Assembly (NCBI GenBank): GCA_017471985.1
Contig: JAFURE010000070.1
Coordinates: 1-57,340, forward strand
Reading direction: 5' to 3'
Source of the DNA: Akkermansia sp.
GTDB lineage: Bacteria; Verrucomicrobiota; Verrucomicrobiia; Verrucomicrobiales; Akkermansiaceae
DNA length: 57,340 nt
Shown here one piece after another: positions 21,192 to 35,277 of this stretch (position 1 is the first letter of the stretch; each line of letters begins with the position of its first letter). The notes under the pieces were generated by a model. The model worked only from the letters and a program-made list of their open reading frames with translations. It made no database searches and had not been told where the DNA came from. A program made the translations under genes and the position numbers.

Positions 21192-21204
21192 AAGAGAAGT
21201 GACG

Positions 21205-22053
21205 ATGAAGAGCATTGTACAGAAATTGACTTCGTTGGCCCTGCTTGCAGGCGGGTCAGTAATGGCGGAAGGACACCATGAGGGTCTCTCGATGGATGCC
21301 CCGGTACTCTGGGAGATACCCATTCCCTTCTGGGACGGGCACAGCATACCGATTAATAACTCTCTGATAATGTACTGCCTGGCTGTGCTGGTGCTCGTTG
21401 TAGTTCTGCGACTTGCTACGCGCAAGATGGAGCGCATACCCTACGGCCTGCAGAACTTCGTTGAGTGGGTGTTTGAATCTCTCTACAACTTTATTGAAGG
21501 TCTGGCCGGTAAGAAACTCACCAAGAAATATTTCTGGTACTTTGCCACTGTATTCCTGCTTATTCTCACCAGCAACTACATGGGGCTCATCCCCGGCGTG
21601 GGTGAAATCACCTATGACGGCCAGCCGCTTTTCCGTGGTGCCAATGCCGACCTTAACGTCACACTCTTCCTCGGTTTCCTTTACGCCATCCTCTGGTTTA
21701 TCTGGTGCATTCGTGAGCAAGGCATTAAGCACTTCCTCGGCCACATTTTCGGAGTAAAGGGCGGCCTGACCGGATTCCTGAAATATGCCCTCATGCCCAT
21801 CTTCTTCTTTGTGGGTATGATTGAGCTGCTTTCCATCTGCGTGCGCCCCGTTGCGCTTGCAGCCCGACTTTTCGGTAACATCTACGCCGGCGAGGCCATT
21901 CTGGAAAAGATGGGGGCCATCGGCTGGTACGCCATGTTACCTTTCATGTGCATGGAGCTGCTGGTCGGCTTTGTGCAGGCGCTGGTGTTCCTGATGCTAA
22001 CCGCCCTCTTCCTGAAAACGCAGGTAGGCGGAGATGAGGAAGCCGCACACTAA
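21205..22053 (+). CDS. atpB: ATP synthase F0 subunit a
   Basis: A 282-aa membrane subunit of the proton channel. The stator Arg is in A-A-R-L-F-G-N-I-Y-A-G-E, the match to the E. coli Arg210 block. Several membrane helices are clear. The N-terminus (MKSIVQKLTSLALLAGGSVMAEG) looks like a cleavable signal peptide followed by a His/Glu-rich segment, as in Verrucomicrobia, Bacteroidota and Chlorobi a-subunits. The start could also be the GTG at 21199, two codons upstream. No atpI precedes it. First gene of the operon. Confidence 0.93.
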   Translation: MKSIVQKLTSLALLAGGSVMAEGHHEGLSMDAPVLWEIPIPFWDGHSIPINNSLIMYCLAVLVLVVVLRLATRKMERIPYGLQNFVEWVFESLYNFIEGLAGKKLTKKYFWYFATVFLLILTSNYMGLIPGVGEITYDGQPLFRGANADLNVTLFLGFLYAILWFIWCIREQGIKHFLGHIFGVKGGLTGFLKYALMPIFFFVGMIELLSICVRPVALAARLFGNIYAGEAILEKMGAIGWYAMLPFMCMELLVGFVQALVFLMLTALFLKTQVGGDEEAAH

Positions 22054-22138
22054 CCCCCTTCCCGCCGCGCCGGATCATGCAGTAAAGACGTGACGGCAGG
22101 CAGAAGACAACTGAACAACAAACACAACATCACACATC

Positions 22139-22360
22139 ATGCTCGAAACAATCGCCAACGCAGTTGCAGGTACCGACCTGACTCCGCTTAAGTCCGCTCT
22201 CGCCGTTCTCGGTGCCGGTCTCGGCATCGGTCTCATCGGTATGAAGGCCGCTGAGTCTGCCGGTCGTAACCCCGGCGCCTTCTCTCAGGTGCTCATTATC
22301 TCCATCATTCTTGCCGCTCTCGTGGAAGGTGTGGCATTCGTAGCAATCTTCATGGGCTAA
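22139..22360 (+). CDS. atpE: ATP synthase F0 subunit c
   Basis: A 73-aa hairpin of two membrane helices joined by the polar loop A-G-R-N-P that contacts F1. The ion-binding carboxylate is Glu63 in L-V-E-G-V-A-F. The residues that mark sodium-type rings (Gln in helix 1; Ser/Thr after the Glu) are absent, so proton coupling is expected. It begins 85 nt after atpB and is followed by a GC-rich hairpin. No Shine-Dalgarno is visible (ACATCACACATC before the ATG). Confidence 0.95.
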   Translation: MLETIANAVAGTDLTPLKSALAVLGAGLGIGLIGMKAAESAGRNPGAFSQVLIISIILAALVEGVAFVAIFMG

Positions 22361-22370
22361 GCCCGATATC

Positions 22371-22399
22371 CGGCGGTGCCGCGGAGAACGGCACCGCCG
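22371..22399 (+). other. GC-rich hairpin in the atpE-atpF gap
   Basis: Perfect 11-bp inverted repeat CGGCGGTGCCG / CGGCACCGCCG with a 7-nt loop and no U-tract. It probably protects the 3-prime end of atpBE mRNA or slows read-through, which would help make more c subunit than the others. Confidence 0.7.
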
Positions 22400-22444
22400 A
22401 TTCCACCTTTCTCCATCACCTAACCTCTTCAACAGAAAAACACC

Positions 22445-22966
22445 ATGTACACTCCGGTAATCGCCGCCAGCATACAGGAAATGGCCGGTAAGTTCGGCCT
22501 TCATACAGATATTTTCATTGCCCACTTCATCGCATTTGCGATTCTGGTGGCGGTTGTCGTACTCTTCGGCGTAAAACCCATCATCAAGCAACTCGAAGAG
22601 CGCCGCGCCCGCATTGAGGAGGGCGAAGCCATGCACGAGCGCAGTCAGAAAGAGTTGGCCGAAGTTAAAACCACCGGCGAGAAAATTCTTGCAGACGCCC
22701 ACGCCGAGGGCAAGCAGCAGATTGAGCATGCACGCAGCACGGCAGCCAAACTGCAGGCCGAGCTGACCGACAAAGCCGCAGCCGAGGCCCGTACCATCAT
22801 CGAGAATGCCCGCACTCAGGCCGAGCTCGACACCCAGCGCGAAAAAGACGCTCTCAAGGGTGAGTTTGCACGACTGGTAGCCGCGGCAACCGCTCAGGTA
22901 ACCGGTAAGGTTCTTACCGAAAATGATCACCGAATCATCAACGAGGAGGCCATCCGCAATCTGTAA
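22445..22966 (+). CDS. atpF: ATP synthase F0 subunit b
   Basis: A 173-aa stator subunit. It has one N-terminal membrane helix (about residues 22-45, D-I-F-I-A-H-F-I-A-F-A-I-L-V). A long Ala/Glu/Lys/Arg-rich helix follows (about 50-150) that dimerises as the peripheral stalk. The C-terminus meets delta. Only one b gene is present, so the stalk is a b2 homodimer. Starts about 45 nt after the hairpin. Confidence 0.92.
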   Translation: MYTPVIAASIQEMAGKFGLHTDIFIAHFIAFAILVAVVVLFGVKPIIKQLEERRARIEEGEAMHERSQKELAEVKTTGEKILADAHAEGKQQIEHARSTAAKLQAELTDKAAAEARTIIENARTQAELDTQREKDALKGEFARLVAAATAQVTGKVLTENDHRIINEEAIRNL

Positions 22967-23002
22967 TTTCACCGCAGATATCTCCCCTTTCTCCGGAACG
23001 CC

Positions 23003-23398
23003 ATGAAGATAACCAAGGAAGCACAGGCACAGGCACGCCGTCTCATGCGACTCTGCATGGGTGCTGATGGTCGCCTGCAGGAAGACAACGTGCGCCGCGT
23101 AGCCACAACCCTCTGCTCAGAGAAGCCGCGCAACTATCTTGCCATCCTCAAGTCATTCACCGACATGGTGCGACTTGAGGTTCAGCGCCACACCGCCACT
23201 GTCACGACTGCCCGCCCTGTTCAGAAAGCCGAGAAGGCAGCAATTCGCGCCAAGCTTGACGCCCGCCACCCGGGCCTGCATTACGAATGGCTCACTGACC
23301 CCTCTCTGATTGCCGGCATGACCGTGAAAGTCGGTGACAATGTAACCGACGCCTCAGTCCGCTCCCGTATCGAGCGCCTTGAAAAACTTATCTCCTGA
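23003..23398 (+). CDS. atpH: ATP synthase F1 subunit delta (short form)
   Basis: A 131-aa protein in the delta position. It is shorter than the usual 175-180 aa. The C-terminal part keeps the delta signature (D-P-S-L-I-A-G-M-T-V-K-V-G-D-N-V-T-D-A-S-V-R-S-R-I-E-R-L, residues about 98-125), which contacts b. The N-terminal six-helix bundle that caps alpha is reduced. Position between atpF and atpA fixes the identity. The mid region is helical and basic. Confidence 0.88.
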   Translation: MKITKEAQAQARRLMRLCMGADGRLQEDNVRRVATTLCSEKPRNYLAILKSFTDMVRLEVQRHTATVTTARPVQKAEKAAIRAKLDARHPGLHYEWLTDPSLIAGMTVKVGDNVTDASVRSRIERLEKLIS

Positions 23399-23452
23399 CA
23401 CAACTTCAACCTCCTCTCCAACAGAAATTTTCAATAAATCACCACAAAGCGT

Positions 23453-24994
23453 ATGAGCAACATCGTACAAGAACTTGAAGCACAGATTCGCAACGCCACA
23501 GCTGCCACCGTCAGCGAAAACGTGGGCACCATCAAAGCCATCGGTGACGGCGTGGCTCACATTGAAGGCCTGAGCAGCGCCATGCTCAATGAAATGATTG
23601 AGTTCCCCGGCGGCGTCATGGGTCTGGCCATGAACCTCGAGGAAAATGAGGTAGGTGCCGTGCTCATCGGCAACGGCAATGCCCTGAAGGAAGGCGATAC
23701 CTGCAAAACAACGGGGCGCCTGCTGCAGGTACCGGTAGGTCGTGGCCTGCTCGGACGCGTGGTGGACACTCTGGGTAACCCGCTTGACGGCAAGGGCCCC
23801 ATCACCGCAGATGCTTATTATCCGGTTGAAAAGATTGCCTCGGGCATCATTTCCCGTCAGGGTGTGAACCAGCCTGTGCAGACCGGTATTCTTCCCATCG
23901 ATGCCATGATTCCCATCGGTCGCGGCCAGCGTGAGCTCATCATCGGCGACCGCTCCACCGGCAAGACTGCCATTGCCACCGACACCATGATTTCGCAGGC
24001 TCGCCAGAATAAACTGGCAGAGGAAGGCAAGCTGCCCGGCCATCGCCCGCTCTACAGCATCTACGTCGCCATCGGTCAGAAGCGCGCCACCATCTCCCGA
24101 CTGGTTGCCAAGCTCGAGGAAAGCGGCGCCATGCCCTACAGCATCATTGTGGTAGCCAGTGCCTCCGACAGCGCCGCCATGCAGTACCTGGCTCCCTATG
24201 CCGGTTGCGCCATGGGTGAGTACTTCATGGATCAGGGTGAGGACGCCCTCATCGTGTACGATGACCTTTCCAAGCACGCCGTGGCATATCGCCAGGTATC
24301 TCTGATTCTGCGCCGTCCCTCCGGTCGCGAGGCATACCCCGGTGACGTGTTCTACCTGCACAGCCGCTTGCTGGAGCGCGCAGCCCGAATCAACTCTGAG
24401 GGTGGCCGTAAAGGCGGCTCGCTGACAGCCCTGCCCATTATTGAAACGCAGGCCGGCGACGTATCAGCCTACATTCCCACCAACGTGATTTCCATCACCG
24501 ACGGCCAGATTTTCCTCGACACAGACCTCTTCTATCAGGGTGTGCGCCCCGCCATTAACGTGGGTATCTCCGTGAGCCGCGTGGGCTCCTCTGCCCAGAC
24601 CAAGATTGTGAAGAAGCTCGCCGGTTCCGTAAAACTTGACCTGGCTCAGTTCGAAGAACTTCAGGCTTTCGCCCAGTTCGGCTCCGACCTCGATGCCAAC
24701 ACCAAGGCCAAGCTCGAGCGTGGCCGCCGCATCGTGGAGCTCTTCAAACAGGGGCAGTACGACCCCAAGAGCCTCAGCATTGAAGTGATTGACCTCTACG
24801 CCATTCAGAAGGGCTACCTCGATGACGTTCCTGTGGACAAGGTGCAGCAGGTATGCCGCGACATGGAGGAGGAAGCCACCACCAATAACCCCGATCTGAT
24901 GGCTGCCATCGAGGCCGGCAAGGAGCTGACCCCCGAAATCGATGAGAAGCTCAAGCAGTTCATGACTGCCTTCAAATCCCGCCTGACGAAGTAA
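23453..24994 (+). CDS. atpA: ATP synthase F1 subunit alpha
   Basis: A 513-aa non-catalytic nucleotide-binding subunit. The P-loop is GDRSTGKT (residues 165-172), where most alphas have GDRQTGKT; Ser168 replaces the usual Gln. The beta-barrel (about 25-95), core and C-terminal helical domain (from about 380) are complete, and the signature [17 protein letters not shown] is present, which holds the Arg finger. Standard position and length. Confidence 0.97.
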
Positions 24995-25001
24995 TCTCCC
25001 C

Positions 25002-25874
25002 ATGGCAAACCTCAGAGACATCAAGCGCCGCATTAAGTCGGTACGCAACACATCGCAGATTACCAAAGCGATGCAGATGGTTGCGTCTGCCAAAATGCGC
25101 CGCGCCCAGGAACTGGCACTCAAAGGGCGCAACTACATGAGCGCCCTCGCCCGAGTGCTCAGCCACCTGCAGGAGTCCATCAACGACGCCAACTCGCCCC
25201 TCATGGAAGAGCGCGAGAGCGGCAAGGAGCTCATTATCGTTGTGAGCACAGACCGCGGACTCTGCGGCGGCTTAAACTCCAACCTGCTCAGGGAAGTTCT
25301 GCAAACCTGCCCGCAGGAGGCAGATTACGTAACCATCGGCAATAAGCTGAACACCCAACTGGCACGTTGCGGCCGCAAGCTGGTAGCAACATTCTCGCTG
25401 GGAGATACTGCTGAGGAGTCTGAACTGAAGCCCATTTTCGACTTTGTGCGCAGCAGCTATACTGACGGCACATACAGGAATGTGAGGGTGATTTACCAGA
25501 AGTTCATCAACATCATGGTACAGCGCCCGCAGATGACAACCCTGCTCCCCATCAGCAAGGAGGAATTACTGCGAATCGCCGAACAGGATGAGGCAGATGC
25601 CACGACCGCAACAGCCCCGAACTTCCTGCTCGAACCCGGTCCCGCAGCCCTGCTCAATTCCATTCTGCCGCTCTACATCGGTCATCTGTTGGTTCAGATG
25701 ATACTCGAGGGCAAGGCCAGTGAGCAGTCTGCCCGCATGGTGGCCATGAAGGCTGCTACCGAGAACGCCAAGACTCTCATCGGCGAGCTCACGCTGGAAT
25801 ACAACAAGGCTCGTCAGACACAGATCACAAACGAACTTCTCGAAATCACCACCGCCATGAAGGCAATGGAGTAA
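25002..25874 (+). CDS. atpG: ATP synthase F1 subunit gamma
   Basis: A 290-aa rotor subunit. The N-terminal helix (M-A-N-L-R-D-I-K-R-R-I-K-S-V-R-N-T-S-Q-I) and the C-terminal helix (M-K-A-A-T-E-N-A-K-T-L-I ... Y-N-K-A-R-Q-T-Q-I-T-N-E-L-L-E-I) form the shaft inside the alpha/beta ring. The central Rossmann-like part has S-T-D-R-G-L-C-G-G-L-N. Length is usual. It starts 7 nt after atpA. Confidence 0.96.
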   Translation: MANLRDIKRRIKSVRNTSQITKAMQMVASAKMRRAQELALKGRNYMSALARVLSHLQESINDANSPLMEERESGKELIIVVSTDRGLCGGLNSNLLREVLQTCPQEADYVTIGNKLNTQLARCGRKLVATFSLGDTAEESELKPIFDFVRSSYTDGTYRNVRVIYQKFINIMVQRPQMTTLLPISKEELLRIAEQDEADATTATAPNFLLEPGPAALLNSILPLYIGHLLVQMILEGKASEQSARMVAMKAATENAKTLIGELTLEYNKARQTQITNELLEITTAMKAME

Positions 25875-25921
25875 TACCCCCCACCAACATCAATTTTCAA
25901 AATCAAAACTCTTATTTCTGA

Positions 25922-27331
<1,410 letters not shown>

Positions 27332-27336
27332 TAACC

Positions 27337-27759
27337 ATGGCTCTGCAATTCCAGATTATCACCCCGGTTCGTACTGCCCTGCAGGCGGCTGTGAGCTCCA
27401 TTCAGCTGCCGGCTGTGGCGGGTGAAATGGAGATTCTACCCGGGCATGCTGACCTCATTGCAGCTGTTGACAACGGTGAACTCATATACAAGCCGGAAAA
27501 CGGCGAGGCTCAGAGTCTCTTTGTCGGCGGCGGTTTCCTGCAGGTTGAAAATGAGAATGTGTTGCTGGTAACAGACACCGCGCTGGTGGCAGATGAGATT
27601 GACCCCTCAGCTGTTCAGGCTGCTATTGAGCGAGCTCAGACAGCCCTGCGCAACAGCGAGACTGTTCTCGGCCGCGAGGAACAGACCTATCTGGCTGCCC
27701 AGTTGGCCAAGCAGCTTGCCATGCTCGATTTCACCCGCAAGAAGAAGTCCCGCGCCTGA
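27337..27759 (+). CDS. atpC: ATP synthase F1 subunit epsilon
   Basis: A 140-aa subunit that links gamma to the c-ring and can inhibit ATP hydrolysis. The N-terminal beta-sandwich (about 1-85) has the G-E-M-E-I-L-P-G-H-A-D-L block. The C-terminal helical hairpin (about 90-130) is present, so an inhibitory arm is possible. It starts 5 nt after atpD and is the last gene before a terminator. Confidence 0.94.
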   Translation: MALQFQIITPVRTALQAAVSSIQLPAVAGEMEILPGHADLIAAVDNGELIYKPENGEAQSLFVGGGFLQVENENVLLVTDTALVADEIDPSAVQAAIERAQTALRNSETVLGREEQTYLAAQLAKQLAMLDFTRKKKSRA

Positions 27760-28256: not shown

Positions 28257-31200
28257 ATGAAAACGAGCACAACATCCGCCATACTGGGGCTGGCCTTCAC
28301 GGTCACGCCGTTGTTTGCACAGGCTCCGGCCACAGCAGAACAACCGCAAGAAGCAATAGCTCAGAATGCAGTCGAGCAGAGAGAGCTGGTGCGCGACCCT
28401 CAGATTGTCAGCGGTAAGCTGGAAAACGGGTTGACCTACATCATACGCCCCACGACTGAGCCGGCAGGTCGCGCAAGCGTACGCCTTTACGTCGCCACCG
28501 GTTCTCTGGATGAACAGGCAGAAACCAGCGGTATATCCCACTTCCTTGAGCACATGGTATTCAACGGCAGCCGCACCTTTGAACGCGGCGAGCTGATTCC
28601 CACCATGCAGAAGCTCGGTCTCGGTTTTGGCGGCGATGCCAACGCCTACACCGGCCTGGAACAGACGGTCTACATGCTTGACCTGCCGAACCTGCAGGAC
28701 GAGACGGTAAACTTTGCCTTCACCATCATGCGAGACTTTGCCGATGGCGCCACACTGGCAGATGAAGCCATTGACCACGAGCGTGGCATCATTGTCAGCG
28801 AGCTCAAGAGCCGTGATTCTGAGAGTTATCGCACCACACTTGCCCTGATTGACCAACTTGCGGAGGGCACCCGTATTGCCTCATTCATGCCTATCGGCAA
28901 GGAGGAAGTAATTCGTAATGCCCCCTACGAATTGTTCCGCAAGTACTATCGCGAGAACTATGTCCCCGAGCGCATGACCGTGGTCGTAACCGGTGATTTT
29001 GACCCGGCCACAGCAGAAAGCTGGGTACGAAAGCACTTTGACAGCATGGTTGCCACCCCAGCTCCCACCCGCCCGGACAACGGCAAGCTCACTAACCTCG
29101 GGCCAAGCGATAAGCTCATACCCAACAGCGAGCAGGCCAATGTGAGTGTGATGGCATCTGTCGTAAAGCCCTGGCAGTATGAAGCCGATACCTTTGAGAA
29201 CCGTGTGAAGAACTTCCCGCTGGAGCTGGCCTGCCGCATGCTCAACAACCGCCTGAGCCGCATAGCCCGCAAGGCAGATGCCCCCATCCTGGCAGCCGAT
29301 GTATCTGAAAGCGAGCTTTTCCACATGGCTGACACCTTCGGGTTCTCCCTCACATCTACTCCCGATAAATGGAAAGTAGCACTCATCACCGTGGAACAGG
29401 AACTGCGAAAGGCCATTGAATACGGATTCGAGCCTCACGAGTATCAGGAGACTCTTTCGGCCATAGCTTCCGGCATAACGCATGCCACCCAATCCTGGGA
29501 GACGGTCCCCGCCCCCAGCATGGCCAATAACCTGATTGAATGCCTGAAGAGCGACAGCGTGCCCACCACCCCGGCAGAAGATATGCGCGTGTTCAGGGCT
29601 GCCGTTGAGTATCTGTCTGCCAATCCGGACTGCTGCCGCCAGGCATTGAAAGAGGCCTTCGACTATTCCCGAGTCAAGCTCACCATGTCCGGCGCTCTTC
29701 CTGAGGGTACGACCACGGAATCTCTGCGTGGCACATTCAACGAATCTGCCGCCACCCCCGTGCAGAAGCCCGAACTGAAGGCCGCCCGCCCCTTTGCCTA
29801 TGACCACATCGGCGAACCCGGGCAGATTGTAAAGCAAGAGTACATTGAGGATTTGGGCGTAACCACGCTGACCCTCTCCAACGGTATTCGCGTGAACCTC
29901 AAGCCGGTGGACTTCCGCAAAGGTGGTCTTACTGTAAGCGCCGCTATCGATGGCGGCAGCATGCACATGCCCATCAAGCCCGGACTTGGCATGGTCGTGA
30001 GTAACCTCATGAGCATGAGCGGTCTGGCCGAGCACGACATCGATGAGCTCAAGCGCATCATGATGGGGCACAATGTTGACCTGAACTTCGGCGTAAGCGA
30101 CTGCCGCTACACCGTTTCCGGCGGTACCACTCAGGAGGACCTGGAGCTGCAGTGCAAGCTCATTGTGGCCAATATCCTGCACCCCGGCTACAAGCAGGAT
30201 GCCCTCGCCCTCATGCACAGCAAGCTCCCCGGCTTCTATCGCCGCCTGTCCACCACTCCCGATGGTGCCTATACCATGCAGTCAGCGAAAGCACTTTACG
30301 GCAATGACCCCCGCTTCAACATCCCCACCATGGAAGAGCTCATGGCTGTGACCGTGGACGATGTTAAGGCTGCGGTCGAGCCATTCCTGCAGAAGGGTGC
30401 AATGGAGGTGACGCTCGTGGGTGATTTTGACCTTGCAGCCACACTGCCCATCATCGAGCGCACCTTCGGCGCCATGCCTGCACGCAACACCGAGTTCACT
30501 GAGCCCACAGCCGAGCAGCGCTCCATCAACATTCAGCCCTGGGGACAGCGCAAGTTCTTCCCCTACCCGACTCAGCTCGACAAGACAATCGTCACCCACG
30601 TACGCCCGGCCGGTAATGGTATGGATCGCCATCGTAACCGCCGCCTGACCGTGCTGAGCTCGATTGTACGCGCCAAGCTGTTCGATGGTATACGTGCCGA
30701 AATGGGTGAGACTTACTCCCCCTCCGTACGACTCGAAGTCAATCAGGAGTACGCCAACGCAGCCACCATTGTCACAGCCAGTGCCGGTGTGAAGGGCAAC
30801 CGAGAGAAAGTGAGTGCCGCCATGGATTGCATTCTTACCGACATCGGCAAGGGTAACATCACGCAGGAGGACTTTGACTGCGCTATCCGCCCCCTCATCT
30901 CCTCCACCGAGAAGAGCCTGCGCCAGAACGGATTCTGGTGTGGAAGTCTGGCCGCCCTGCAGAGCGATCCCGAGCAGGCTGACCTCATCCGTGACCTGCT
31001 GCCCGACCTGCGCTCCATCACACTCGAAGAAATTCAGGAGCTGGCCAGGGAAATCTTTGGCAAGGACAACGCTAACTTCTACTTCACCGTGCCGCAGGAT
31101 GCCGTTCCCTCACAGGAACCGGCACCTGCAGTAGATTCCGAGCCCGCAGCCGAGACGACAGCTCCGGTTGCCCCTCAGGCGCCCGAAGCAGCTAAAGCAG

Positions 31201-32627
31201 GCAAAGGTGCTGAAATGGGATACACTGTTCTCACCACAATAGCAACGGCTCAGCTCCCTGAGTGGCAACAGGTGATTGCTGCACTCGTCAACAAATACCC
31301 CGGGGCCGAAGTTGTGGCAGTGGATGCTATTACTGAGGAGAACGTCGCTCAGGCACTGCGCACAGTCGGTGCACGCTATGCTGCCGCAGTACTCCGCCCC
31401 GAGGAAATCGGCCGCGAGACCGTCAACCACCTGCACCGCGCCACACGTAAGCTCGATGATGATATGTGGGGCGACTGCATCTGGGGCATTGTCACCGGTT
31501 ACACCGCAGCAGATGCCCTGCGCATTGCCAGGGATGACACCCCGCTCGTCATTAAGCGTGTACTGGGTACCACGAATGTCGGCTGGCACCCCTTCGAGTA
31601 CAGCTACTGCATCACCGACTGGACGAATGCCCCCGTACTCGAACAGGAAGGCTATACTGAGCCCACGTCCACCACCTACGGCAAAGACACACCTCAGGGG
31701 CAACAGGGCCTGCAGGGGCTCTTCGCCGAGCGCCTTAGCAATGCGCGTAGCCAGATGGTTGTGAGCTCCAGCCACGCTACTCAGTTCAATCTCGAGATGC
31801 CTTTCTCCCGGGGGCTCATCTTCCCCTACGCAAACCGCTTCTACCAACTGAATCAGGGGGAGCTCTATGACTTCGGACGCCCGCTCCACAATGCCCTGCG
31901 CGGTAATACCAAGCGGCTTGCAGAGCTTGCAGAAAAGAAGAAAGACACCGTCATTGAGCCCGATGGGCAGACTCGAGTGTGGATAGCCGCCGGCAACTGC
32001 CTGTTCGGCAATGCTCAAAATAGCCCCCACAGTATGGCAGTCACAGCACTCTCTGCCTACACCTGCAATCAGGTGGTTGGGTACACCGTTCCCTCATGGT
32101 ACGGCGCAGGCGGCTGGGGCACCCTCGGCTCCTTCGTTGATATGGCAGACAACACGACTCTGGCTGAGGCCTGGTACCTCAATAACCAGTTTATTCTGCA
32201 TAGCACTCAGCAGCTCCATCCGGCACTTCTGAATGTGTCATTCAACGGTGAAGGAATGGACTACAATTTCCACCGCACTATCATGTCAACCGGCGTTCCC
32301 GAAAATGCCGAGAACTTCAGGGATATCTTCGGTCTGGTGCATGACCGCGATGTTGTGGCATTCTACGGCGACCCGGCCTGGTCTGCCACCGTCGACTGCA
32401 GCCACTCACCCCGCGCGCTCTCCGTGCAGTGGCAGGGTGACAAAACGGTAACGATTACAGCCAATCGAGATTACAAAGGCCGACTGGGTATATGGTTCCC
32501 CACTCCCGCCACCGGCAAGGATTCCACCAGCTGCGATGCTCCCGAAGCTGTCTATACCGACGACTTCCTTCTCTTCCCCGAGCTGGAGCTGAAGAAGGGA
32601 GAAACAAAGACAGTCAACATCAAATAA
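28257..32627 (+). CDS. Secreted M16 zinc peptidase fused to a cysteine-peptidase-like C-terminal domain
   Basis: A 1456-aa exported protein (signal MKTSTTSAILGLAFTVTPLF, cut near AQA). Residues about 45-940 are two M16 halves. The first has the inverted zinc motif H95-F-L-E98-H99 with Glu175 and Glu182 further on, so it should be an active pitrilysin-like peptidase. The second half (from about 540) lacks HxxEH, as usual for the partner half. A Pro/Ala/Glu linker (about 950-985) leads to a roughly 470-residue domain. That domain carries W-G-I-V-T-G-Y, S-S-S-H-A-T (His1173) and A-A-G-N-C (Cys1248). The His and Cys blocks look like the dyad of clan CD (gingipain-like) cysteine peptidases; this is inference. 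Likely a large periplasmic or surface protease. It is transcribed alone. Confidence 0.8.
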   Translation: MKTSTTSAILGLAFTVTPLFAQAPATAEQPQEAIAQNAVEQRELVRDPQIVSGKLENGLTYIIRPTTEPAGRASVRLYVATGSLDEQAETSGISHFLEHMVFNGSRTFERGELIPTMQKLGLGFGGDANAYTGLEQTVYMLDLPNLQDETVNFAFTIMRDFADGATLADEAIDHERGIIVSELKSRDSESYRTTLALIDQLAEGTRIASFMPIGKEEVIRNAPYELFRKYYRENYVPERMTVVVTGDFDPATAESWVRKHFDSMVATPAPTRPDNGKLTNLGPSDKLIPNSEQANVSVMASVVKPWQYEADTFENRVKNFPLELACRMLNNRLSRIARKADAPILAADVSESELFHMADTFGFSLTSTPDKWKVALITVEQELRKAIEYGFEPHEYQETLSAIASGITHATQSWETVPAPSMANNLIECLKSDSVPTTPAEDMRVFRAAVEYLSANPDCCRQALKEAFDYSRVKLTMSGALPEGTTTESLRGTFNESAATPVQKPELKAARPFAYDHIGEPGQIVKQEYIEDLGVTTLTLSNGIRVNLKPVDFRKGGLTVSAAIDGGSMHMPIKPGLGMVVSNLMSMSGLAEHDIDELKRIMMGHNVDLNFGVSDCRYTVSGGTTQEDLELQCKLIVANILHPGYKQDALALMHSKLPGFYRRLSTTPDGAYTMQSAKALYGNDPRFNIPTMEELMAVTVDDVKAAVEPFLQKGAMEVTLVGDFDLAATLPIIERTFGAMPARNTEFTEPTAEQRSINIQPWGQRKFFPYPTQLDKTIVTHVRPAGNGMDRHRNRRLTVLSSIVRAKLFDGIRAEMGETYSPSVRLEVNQEYANAATIVTASAGVKGNREKVSAAMDCILTDIGKGNITQEDFDCAIRPLISSTEKSLRQNGFWCGSLAALQSDPEQADLIRDLLPDLRSITLEEIQELAREIFGKDNANFYFTVPQDAVPSQEPAPAVDSEPAAETTAPVAPQAPEAAKAGKGAEMGYTVLTTIATAQLPEWQQVIAALVNKYPGAEVVAVDAITEENVAQALRTVGARYAAAVLRPEEIGRETVNHLHRATRKLDDDMWGDCIWGIVTGYTAADALRIARDDTPLVIKRVLGTTNVGWHPFEYSYCITDWTNAPVLEQEGYTEPTSTTYGKDTPQGQQGLQGLFAERLSNARSQMVVSSSHATQFNLEMPFSRGLIFPYANRFYQLNQGELYDFGRPLHNALRGNTKRLAELAEKKKDTVIEPDGQTRVWIAAGNCLFGNAQNSPHSMAVTALSAYTCNQVVGYTVPSWYGAGGWGTLGSFVDMADNTTLAEAWYLNNQFILHSTQQLHPALLNVSFNGEGMDYNFHRTIMSTGVPENAENFRDIFGLVHDRDVVAFYGDPAWSATVDCSHSPRALSVQWQGDKTVTITANRDYKGRLGIWFPTPATGKDSTSCDAPEAVYTDDFLLFPELELKKGETKTVNIK

Positions 32628-32633
32628 CGTAAC

Positions 32634-32664
32634 AAAAAGGACCGGGCAACCGGTCCTTTTTTTA
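32634..32664. terminator. Terminator after the M16 fusion gene
   Basis: Perfect inverted repeat AAAAAGGACCGG / CCGGTCCTTTTT with a 4-nt GCAA loop and a long T-run. The A-run on the left also serves the convergent adaptor gene. Confidence 0.92.
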
Positions 32665-33777
32665 TAACTTTTCCACGTTCAGCTTTGCGCGTCCCTCAGC
32701 TGCCATAAGTGCCTGCTGAGTGCCGTTGACCACAATGGTATCCTGAGGCGACAGATTTCCCTGCACCGCGACCAGACCACCCCTCTGCAGACCGGTTACG
32801 ACAGGAACGGTACGAACGTTACCTTTCTCATTTATAACCAGCACCATGTTAGTACCCTGTATACTGACCACAGCACCCACCGGGATTAACAGGGCATCCT
32901 TCTGCTCCGCAACCTGAGCCCTCACCCTCACAAACATGCCGGGCCTCAACAGCTCATCGGGGTTTGGGGTGCGGGCATCAAGCAGCAGAGAATCGGTTCC
33001 GGTAATCACCGAATTGTCCACCCCCTCGATAGTTGCCGGGTACTGATAGGGGCTCCCATCAGGTAATAATATCTGTACCTTGGCTCCGGGATGCAGAGCA
33101 CCGTTTACACCGCCCTGTTTCAACCAATCCTGCGAGCTGATGCTGAATTGAATGCGGATAGGATTCACCTGCTTAATGACAACCATGGGGCTGCCGCCCG
33201 GGGCAACATAACTGCCGATGTCTGCCTCGGCAAAGCCGGCGATTCCATCGATAGGCGATTTCAACACGCAGTAGCCCAGATTTGTCTCCGCCTGATCAGC
33301 AGCAGCTTTTGCTGCTGCCAGAGCCGCCTGAGCCGCACTGAGCTGTTGTTGAGCATCGGTATAGGTCTGGCGGGAAATAGCGCCACTTCTGACCAGTGGT
33401 TCATTGTATTCCAAGTGCTGCGCGGCCTCCTTCTCAGTGGCCAGTGCCTGCTGCTCACGTTGTTCCGCCTCGGCAAGAGCCTGTTCATAGCGCGTTGGGT
33501 CAATTCGGTAGAGAACCTGCCCTGTCTTCACGTTCTGACCGTTGCTGAACAAGCGTTCCGTCACATAGCCACTCACCTGTGGCAGCACTGCGGCACTTAC
33601 CATACCTTGCAGGCGGCCCACCCACTCGCGGTGCTCTGTCACTGAGCCTACTTGCGGGTGAGCCACCCGTACCGTGTATTCCGGCAACTGCGCAGCGGCT
33701 GACTGCTGCCCGCCATCCTCGCCACAAGCTATGAGCAGCAGCGCCGCCGTCGCAGAAATTGTCATTTTCCTCCACAT
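32662..33777 (-). CDS. RND efflux periplasmic adaptor (AcrA/MexA-type lipoprotein), orphan
   Basis: A 371-aa membrane fusion protein. The signal MWRKMTISATAALLLIAC has a lipobox (Cys18). Adaptor domains follow in order: barrel-sandwich with Q-V-S-G-Y-V and the lipoyl-like I-D-G-I-A-G-F half; a helical hairpin (about 90-175, A-E-A-E-Q-R-E-Q-Q-A-L-A ... A-A-D-Q-A-E-T-N-L); a beta-barrel (about 215-290); and a membrane-proximal part. It should link an RND pump to an outer-membrane channel. No acrB- or tolC-type gene is adjacent. The start is uncertain (33777 chosen; a TTG at 33816 would add 13 residues). Confidence 0.85.
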   Translation of the reverse strand: MWRKMTISATAALLLIACGEDGGQQSAAAQLPEYTVRVAHPQVGSVTEHREWVGRLQGMVSAAVLPQVSGYVTERLFSNGQNVKTGQVLYRIDPTRYEQALAEAEQREQQALATEKEAAQHLEYNEPLVRSGAISRQTYTDAQQQLSAAQAALAAAKAAADQAETNLGYCVLKSPIDGIAGFAEADIGSYVAPGGSPMVVIKQVNPIRIQFSISSQDWLKQGGVNGALHPGAKVQILLPDGSPYQYPATIEGVDNSVITGTDSLLLDARTPNPDELLRPGMFVRVRAQVAEQKDALLIPVGAVVSIQGTNMVLVINEKGNVRTVPVVTGLQRGGLVAVQGNLSPQDTIVVNGTQQALMAAEGRAKLNVEKL

Positions 33778-33848
33778 CACATCATGTGTGACGCACCGAG
33801 AACGGCTTTTTTTCAAAAACAGGAATCACAAACAATTTCAGCCTGTTT

Positions 33849-33877
33849 TTGCACATAAAGAGCCGACATGCTATCTC
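33849..33877 (+). promoter_or_regulatory. Promoter of the glutamate decarboxylase gene
   Basis: -35 TTGCAC (33849-33854), 17-bp spacer, -10 TATCTC (33872-33877), 11 nt before the ATG at 33889. The -35 is good, the -10 weaker. Confidence 0.5.
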
Positions 33878-33888
33878 ACCCGATAACC

Positions 33889-35277
33889 ATGAAAAAATGC
33901 ACCCCCGACAATGAGACGGTCAGCATCTTCGGTGCCACTGATGTGGCAAAGCCGCTGCCCACGGAGCAATTCCCCGAACAGGCCATGCGCCCGGAAGATG
34001 CCTTTCAACTGATTAAAGATGAACTACTGCTTGACGGCAATGCCCGCCAGAACCTGGCAACCTTCTGCCAGACCTGGGACGACACCTGGGTTCACCGCCT
34101 GATGGATATCAGCATATCCAAGAATATGATTGATAAGGACGAATACCCCCAGTGTGCCGAAATCGAGCAGCGCTGCGTGCGCATGATTGCCAACCTCTGG
34201 AATGTGCCGAAGGAGAATACACCTATCGGGTGCTCCACCATCGGCTCGAGCGAGGCCTGCATGCTGGGCGGCATGGCGGCTCTGTGGCGATGGCGAGCCC
34301 GCAGACGCAAGGAAGGCAAGCCCACCGACAAACCCAATCTTGTGTGTGGCCCGGTGCAGATTTGCTGGCATAAGTTCTGCCGCTACTGGGATGTTGAAAT
34401 GCGAGAAATCCCCATGAGCAAGGACAGTTTCTGCATGAGTGAGGAAGAAATGCTCAAGCGGGTGGATGAAAACACCATCTGCGTGGTGCCGACATTCGGC
34501 GTTACTTACACGGGGCAATATGAGTTCCCGGAACCAGTCTGCCGCGCACTCGACAAGCTTGCAGCTGAAGGCGGCCCCGATGTTGACGTACACGTAGACG
34601 CGGCAAGCGGCGGTTTTCTGGCACCCTTCACTGCGCCGGAGATTCCCTTTGACTTCCGCCTGCCCCGCATCAAATCCATCAGCTCCAGCGGTCACAAATA
34701 CGGCCTTGCCCCGGTAGGCTGCGGCTGGGTCGTATGGCGAGATGTGTCGGAACTGCCCAAAGATCTGACCTTTGCCGTGAACTACCTTGGCGGCAGCATA
34801 CCCACCATCGCACTCAATTTCTCGCGCCCGGCCGGTCAGGTTATATCACAGTATTACACTTTCAGCCGACTCGGCATGGAAGGTTACCGTCGCATACACA
34901 ATGCCGCATATCAGGTGGCCGATTTCCTGCACCGAGAGTTCAACAAACTGGGTAAGTTCAAGTTCATTGCCACGGGTAACCCGCAAACGGACATACCGGC
35001 GGTCTGCTTTTACATGAAGAAAGGCTACACCCCCGGTTACAACCTCTACGAGCTGTCAGACAGGCTGCGTATACGTGGCTGGCAGGTGCCGGCGTTCAGC
35101 CTGCCCGCCAATGTGGAGGACATCGTAGTCATGCGCGTGATGGTGCGCCGAGGGTTCACCATGGACATGGCTGCCCTGCTTATGGAGGACGTCAAGCGAG
35201 CCATGGACTTTCTGTCAGCACATGCCCCCGCACAGCATCTGGAGGAGAAAGAGGCCATGACCTTCAAGCATACCTGA
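33889..35277 (+). CDS. gadB: Glutamate decarboxylase
   Basis: A 462-aa PLP enzyme that turns glutamate into GABA, using up a proton. Strong match along its length to E. coli Gad[36 protein letters not shown], and the PLP Lys in S-S-S-G-H-K-Y-G (Lys270). In gut bacteria it serves acid resistance with the GadC antiporter. No antiporter is adjacent, so export of GABA depends on a distant gene. The start at 33889 is preferred because an ATG at 33868 lies in the -10 region. Confidence 0.95.

Follow-up and report, generated by a model that had tools for sequence, protein, structure and literature searches.

An exported Akkermansia protein that joins an M16 zinc peptidase to a divergent gingipain-like domain, with the predicted cysteine site lost in one clade

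The window analysed here is a stretch of 57,340 nucleotides from Akkermansia sp. (assembly GCA_017471985.1, contig JAFURE010000070.1, positions 1 to 57,340). It contains a 1456-aa frame whose ATG start opens, by eye, into a putative Sec-type signal peptide, followed by an M16 zinc peptidase, a linker and a C-terminal domain that resembles the gingipains (Table 1). The genes directly upstream (21199-27759) read by eye as those of an F-type ATPase. A HlyD-type efflux adaptor is encoded on the minus strand (32662-33816), and just downstream (33868-35277) lies a gene for a pyridoxal-dependent decarboxylase (Pfam E 2.7e-81), which looks by eye like a glutamate decarboxylase. No RNA families were found near the fused protease gene, and a literature search found no paper on this fused protein.

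Table 1. Features of the fused protease gene, in window coordinates
Feature	Position	Strand	Basis
Whole gene: exported M16 peptidase with C25-like domain, 1456 aa	28257..32627	+	single open frame; orthologues with the same fusion
Sec-type signal peptide, residues 1-23 (n-region, hydrophobic core, AQA)	28257..28325	+	by-eye reading of the sequence
Two-repeat zinc peptidase of the M16 family (PqqL type), residues 44-945	28386..31091	+	Pfam PF00675 and PF05193; PDB 9ldy, PqqL 6ofs
Zinc-binding and catalytic motif HFLEH (catalytic Glu98), residues 95-99	28539..28553	+	sequence
Glu175, probable third zinc ligand, 80 residues past His95	28779..28781	+	sequence
R813-x6-Y820, second M16 repeat	30693..30716	+	sequence
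Pro/Ala/Glu-rich linker, residues 946-986	31092..31214	+	length highly variable among species; low confidence in two-domain model
Core of the C25-like peptidase (gingipain fold), about residues 987-1382	31215..32402	+	AlphaFold model; gingipain structural match; C25 profile match
N-subdomain signature R1064..D1067.D1069...D1073...G1077..T1080G1081	31446..31499	+	conserved among relatives
His1173 (in SSSHAT), predicted catalytic His	31773..31775	+	invariant in relatives; after model strand; aligned to C25 His
Cys1248 (in AAGNC, GNCL), predicted nucleophile	31998..32000	+	invariant in relatives; after model strand; aligned to C25 Cys
G1371-D1372-P1373, GDP motif common to family C25	32367..32375	+	conservation and C25 alignment
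C-terminal beta-rich segment, residues 1383-1456	32403..32624	+	secondary structure of the model

The zinc peptidase half can be assigned to known families. A Pfam scan matched PF00675 (E 1.8e-22; 80.3 bits, cut-off 22.3) and PF05193 (E 1.1e-30; 107.3 bits, cut-off 23), laid out as one Peptidase_M16 stretch and two M16_C stretches. In a PDB sequence search the M16 match to 9ldy (E 4e-70) runs the whole length of the M16 part (residues 44-939), and that to Escherichia coli PqqL (6ofs, E 3.5e-46) covers residues 44-741. R813 and Y820 occupy positions that we take to be those of the substrate/transition-state residues of M16 enzymes; as the HxxEH motif, Glu175 and this pair are all there, the zinc peptidase looks complete. 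Judged by its sequence, then, this half is a complete M16 zinc peptidase with two repeats. PqqL and 9ldy are its nearest matches, and it shares with them the two repeats (44-939), the HxxEH motif and export; the matched chains of those two proteins, however, end with the M16 part and carry no cysteine-peptidase domain. A previous reading made from the sequence alone (the sequence-only reading) had placed a complete HxxEH site with Glu98 in the first half of the protein: the site is indeed there, but the M16 part extends past the midpoint and makes up about two thirds of the protein. HxxEH is also found in the fused orthologues listed, including those that have lost the cysteine of the second domain (see below).

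The same reading correctly described a Pro/Ala linker followed by a domain of about 470 residues. Neither the length of the linker (∼24-95 residues across species) nor its sequence is conserved between species, and no constant cleavage site is visible in it. When the C-terminal half of the M16 part was modelled together with the C25-like domain, each half was confident; docking of the two halves was not retained, as the two-domain model had no confident arrangement, and no fixed docking is predicted because the pTM was only 0.54 despite the two confident halves. The simplest reading of the model is that two proteases would be joined by a flexible tether.

The C-terminal domain is not recognized by existing family models: only chance-level matches were obtained against Pfam, NCBIfam and PHROG, and searching PDB sequences with a profile of the domain likewise gave chance hits only. 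A search with the Pfam Peptidase_C25 HMM, which the sequence-only reading had proposed as a check, failed to pick up the domain: PF01364 gave no match over its curated cut-off when run on the window protein, on 31 members of the family and on 10 relatives, and none of the Akkermansia genomes searched gave a hit to it.

Its predicted structure is informative. An AlphaFold model of residues 968-1456, built from an alignment of 31 relatives, has a mean pLDDT of 92.5 and a pTM of 0.92, and its best structural match (VIA-align) is gingipain R (4ief/1cvr; Z 22.6, 280 residues, 3.3 A, ∼10% identity), followed by gingipain K (Z 21.3), the gingipain matches spanning 280-289 residues. Structure prediction and fold search thus point to a gingipain core. 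CHAT proteases (Csx29/TPR-CHAT of Craspase) share the caspase-haemoglobinase core (Z 12-14), but they are cytoplasmic, CRISPR-linked and less similar than the gingipains; C11 peptidases (clostripain, iotapain) have the clan CD fold likewise, but at a Z of only ∼6 they are near background (unrelated structures start at Z ∼5-6 in the same comparison). Both rank below C25 and may be distant kin of the domain. Foldseek alone placed no gingipain in its top 50 and gave no E under 0.001, and its top rows were misleading. In the model, His206 (His1173 of the full protein) follows strand 200-203 and Cys281 (Cys1248) follows strand 273-277, which is the clan CD layout. Both residues are where the sequence-only reading had put them.

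A second line of evidence comes from profiles. We compared 32 stand-alone relatives of the domain with 18 PF01364 domains from the same phylum (verrucomicrobial): hhalign aligned the whole domain with a score of 41.7 (P 1.2e-4, probability 56%), with GH on GH, NC on SC and GDP on GDP, against a maximum of 16.1 for 100 column shuffles, 17.3 for the reversed profile and 19-19.8 for two M16 profiles. In absolute terms the match is modest. An Akkermansia-only profile scored 20.6 against C25, not above the decoys, and a mixed profile behaved likewise. For this reason the fused form appears to be a diverged branch, and the C25 homology rests on the stand-alone relatives and the fold. With the two taken together, the domain almost certainly has a C25-like fold, and its assignment to a divergent C25-like (clan CD) family outside Pfam C25 is supported; the clan CD reading made from the sequence is supported with it.

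The predicted catalytic residues are invariant in all 63 broad relatives from Verrucomicrobiota (His1173 and Cys1248 in 63 of 63), as are G1246, N1247, L1249, G1371 and P1373, and D1372 is nearly so. This conservation is not a search artefact, since the first 34 relatives were fetched by peptide patterns that left out both the His and the Cys. The motifs themselves depart from the textbook HG and AC of clan CD: relatives have HA (once HG) and GNC, and in most stand-alone relatives the His motif is SGHAT. The likeness to the gingipains RgpB and Kgp (C25, PF01364) has two sides. The predicted fold, the order of His then Cys, the GDP motif, the beta-rich C-terminus and export are shared; the window domain, however, is only ∼10% identical to them, has no Pfam C25 match, carries HA and GNC with a His-Cys spacing of its own (75 residues in Akkermansia, ∼50 in most stand-alone relatives), is fused to an M16 peptidase and belongs to a family in which some members are pseudoenzymes. 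In gingipains the catalytic domain is followed by one of Ig type, to which the beta-rich C-terminal segment may be analogous.

Of 76 Akkermansia genomes, 70 carry the domain (53 of the 55 good ones); in a sample of 387 genomes from the phylum, 71 do. Among the 70 Akkermansia hits, 61 lie in frames of at least 1287 aa, which rules out that the fusion is a chance or assembly artefact. A tree of 56 domains places the fused form in both main branches of Akkermansia, and the 13 non-Akkermansia rows stand together beyond one well-supported branch. Read most simply, the tree suggests that the ancestor of Akkermansia already had the fusion, which has been split several times since. In L042/L055 and L058 the domain is the next gene, with a signal-like start of its own, and these are real separate genes; in L053/L062 there is no M16 in the flanks of the stand-alone domain gene, and in the Akkermansia genomes with such a stand-alone domain (G009, G023) the M16 gene is on a different contig. 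Three other split cases (L037, L051 and G006) look like assembly frameshifts. As the halves are split into separate genes, covalent coupling is not always needed. One Akkermansia genome (G235, 99% complete) has neither the PqqL-type M16 nor the C25-like domain. A viral origin of the domain was also considered and set aside, no relative having been found with the IMG/VR patterns or in phage records.

Other families of the phylum carry the domain in different company. Fusions with a transglutaminase-like domain are found in L109 (3116-5719), L110 (2021-4624), L112 (3446-5827) and L115 (243-2654), where the partner is C-terminal, and in L124 (4674-6605), where it is N-terminal. In L113 (828-4634) the C25-like domain is C-terminal on a GH127 beta-L-arabinofuranosidase, i.e. 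a protease-like domain on a glycosidase.

Conservation of the dyad, which the sequence-only reading expected of orthologues, holds across the 63 broad relatives but fails in part of the genus: 13 Akkermansia genomes (L189-L194, L196, L209-L214; seven species with fully read genes and six further genomes) keep the domain with Cys1248 replaced by Gly. At the position of His1173 these genomes have His (five), Gln (two) or Pro (six), so that the His is lost in eight. The seven fully read species form one clade (support 100/100), have mostly GPG at the GNC position, keep the fusion and have an intact M16 HxxEH motif. Their changes cluster at the dyad (H1173, A1174, N1247, C1248 and L1249), the other changed near-invariant residues being Y1276, G1283, G1286, W1287 and D1363; 19 residues that are nearly invariant elsewhere are still kept, and the signature residues R1064, D1069, D1073, G1077, T1080 and G1081 are retained. 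The joint decay of the dyad is independent evidence that His1173 and Cys1248 cooperate in intact members. For the domain in this clade dN/dS is 0.08-0.15 (four pairs tested), similar to the M16 half, and because dS is near saturation these values are only a sign of constraint; the Cys-lost domains are apparently under purifying selection. Catalysis cannot be the sole function of the domain, because 13 genomes keep it without the Cys, which suggests an additional, non-catalytic use. Relative to what had been read from the sequence, three refinements are supported: the domain is C25-like yet outside Pfam C25, the fusion is genus-wide and no one-off, and the cysteine site has been inactivated in part of the genus.

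The explanation we favour, and think rather likely as a whole, is an exported Akkermansia enzyme with two proteases, an M16 peptidase and a gingipain-like cysteine peptidase on a linker, that serves scavenging and has one clade of pseudoenzymes. Where the dyad is intact, the C-terminal domain is very probably an active cysteine peptidase, in which His1173 would activate Cys1248 as the working nucleophile. M16 enzymes take peptides into a closed chamber, which a preceding endopeptidase would feed: the cysteine domain may begin by cutting folded or large proteins, and the M16 chamber may finish off the resulting peptides, all outside the cytoplasm and to scavenge nutrients. That labour is divided between the two halves in some such way is quite possible, if short of an even bet. 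A tentative, slightly less probable version adds that the gingipain-like endopeptidase hands fragments via the tether to the M16 chamber, that this arrangement is ancestral to Akkermansia, and that in one clade the second domain turned into a pseudo-gingipain binding domain; in those 13 genomes it would have been retained as a pseudoenzyme for binding or support. As for the substrate, mucin or its proteins would be a guess based on habitat alone, and an unlikely one.

How far binding might account for the family as a whole is a separate matter. The C25-like half could serve the M16 peptidase chiefly for binding or targeting, with the cysteine chemistry secondary and its loss in one clade cheap; the 13 genomes without the Cys (eight also without the His) that still keep the domain fused and show signs of purifying selection on it, the intact M16 motif in the seven fully read species and the attachment of the domain to enzymes as different as transglutaminase-like ones and GH127 all fit this, but a pure binder needs neither His nor Cys, and both are invariant in all 63 other relatives, stand-alones included. 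We consider it an unlikely explanation. Less probable still is the suggestion of the sequence-only reading that the cysteine domain is a processing unit; it would cut the linker, in cis or in trans, and so free the M16 half or switch it on. Gingipains self-process, the linker is long and flexible, and the species with separate genes indicate that separated halves can work; against it, the linker varies in length and sequence and shows no constant cleavage site, the Cys-lost species retain the fusion, and no PqqL-type M16 was found in the flanks examined of stand-alone genes outside Akkermansia. Least probable, and to our mind very improbable, is a clan CD fold that is no peptidase, its conserved Cys and His serving other transferase or ligase chemistry: HA in place of HG, GNC in place of AC and the transglutaminase-like partner in some relatives would allow it, but the nearest folds are all peptidases, gingipains by far the nearest, and the dyad is in register with C25.

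Akkermansia is a much-studied, mucus-dwelling gut genus. In a MEROPS-based survey of its proteases, M16 is absent from the main text, and the conserved cysteine peptidases listed are C26 and C82A (PMC10540074). What we describe is a predicted gingipain-fold protease missed by Pfam, present in nearly every Akkermansia species and joined to a zinc protease. The fused enzyme is a concrete candidate for extracellular protein breakdown, the clade that lost the dyad is a natural experiment on the purpose of the cysteine site, and in the wider family a C25-like module has proved mobile, being attached to several other secreted enzymes.

When A. muciniphila is grown on mucin, a peptidase, Amuc_0576, is more abundant in its outer-membrane fraction (PMC4960237). 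In two single-contig genomes of 2.7 Mb, the orthologue of the fused protease lies at 0.68-0.70 Mb, approximately where the locus number Amuc_0576 would fall, and as a lead Amuc_0576 is a candidate for the A. muciniphila orthologue.
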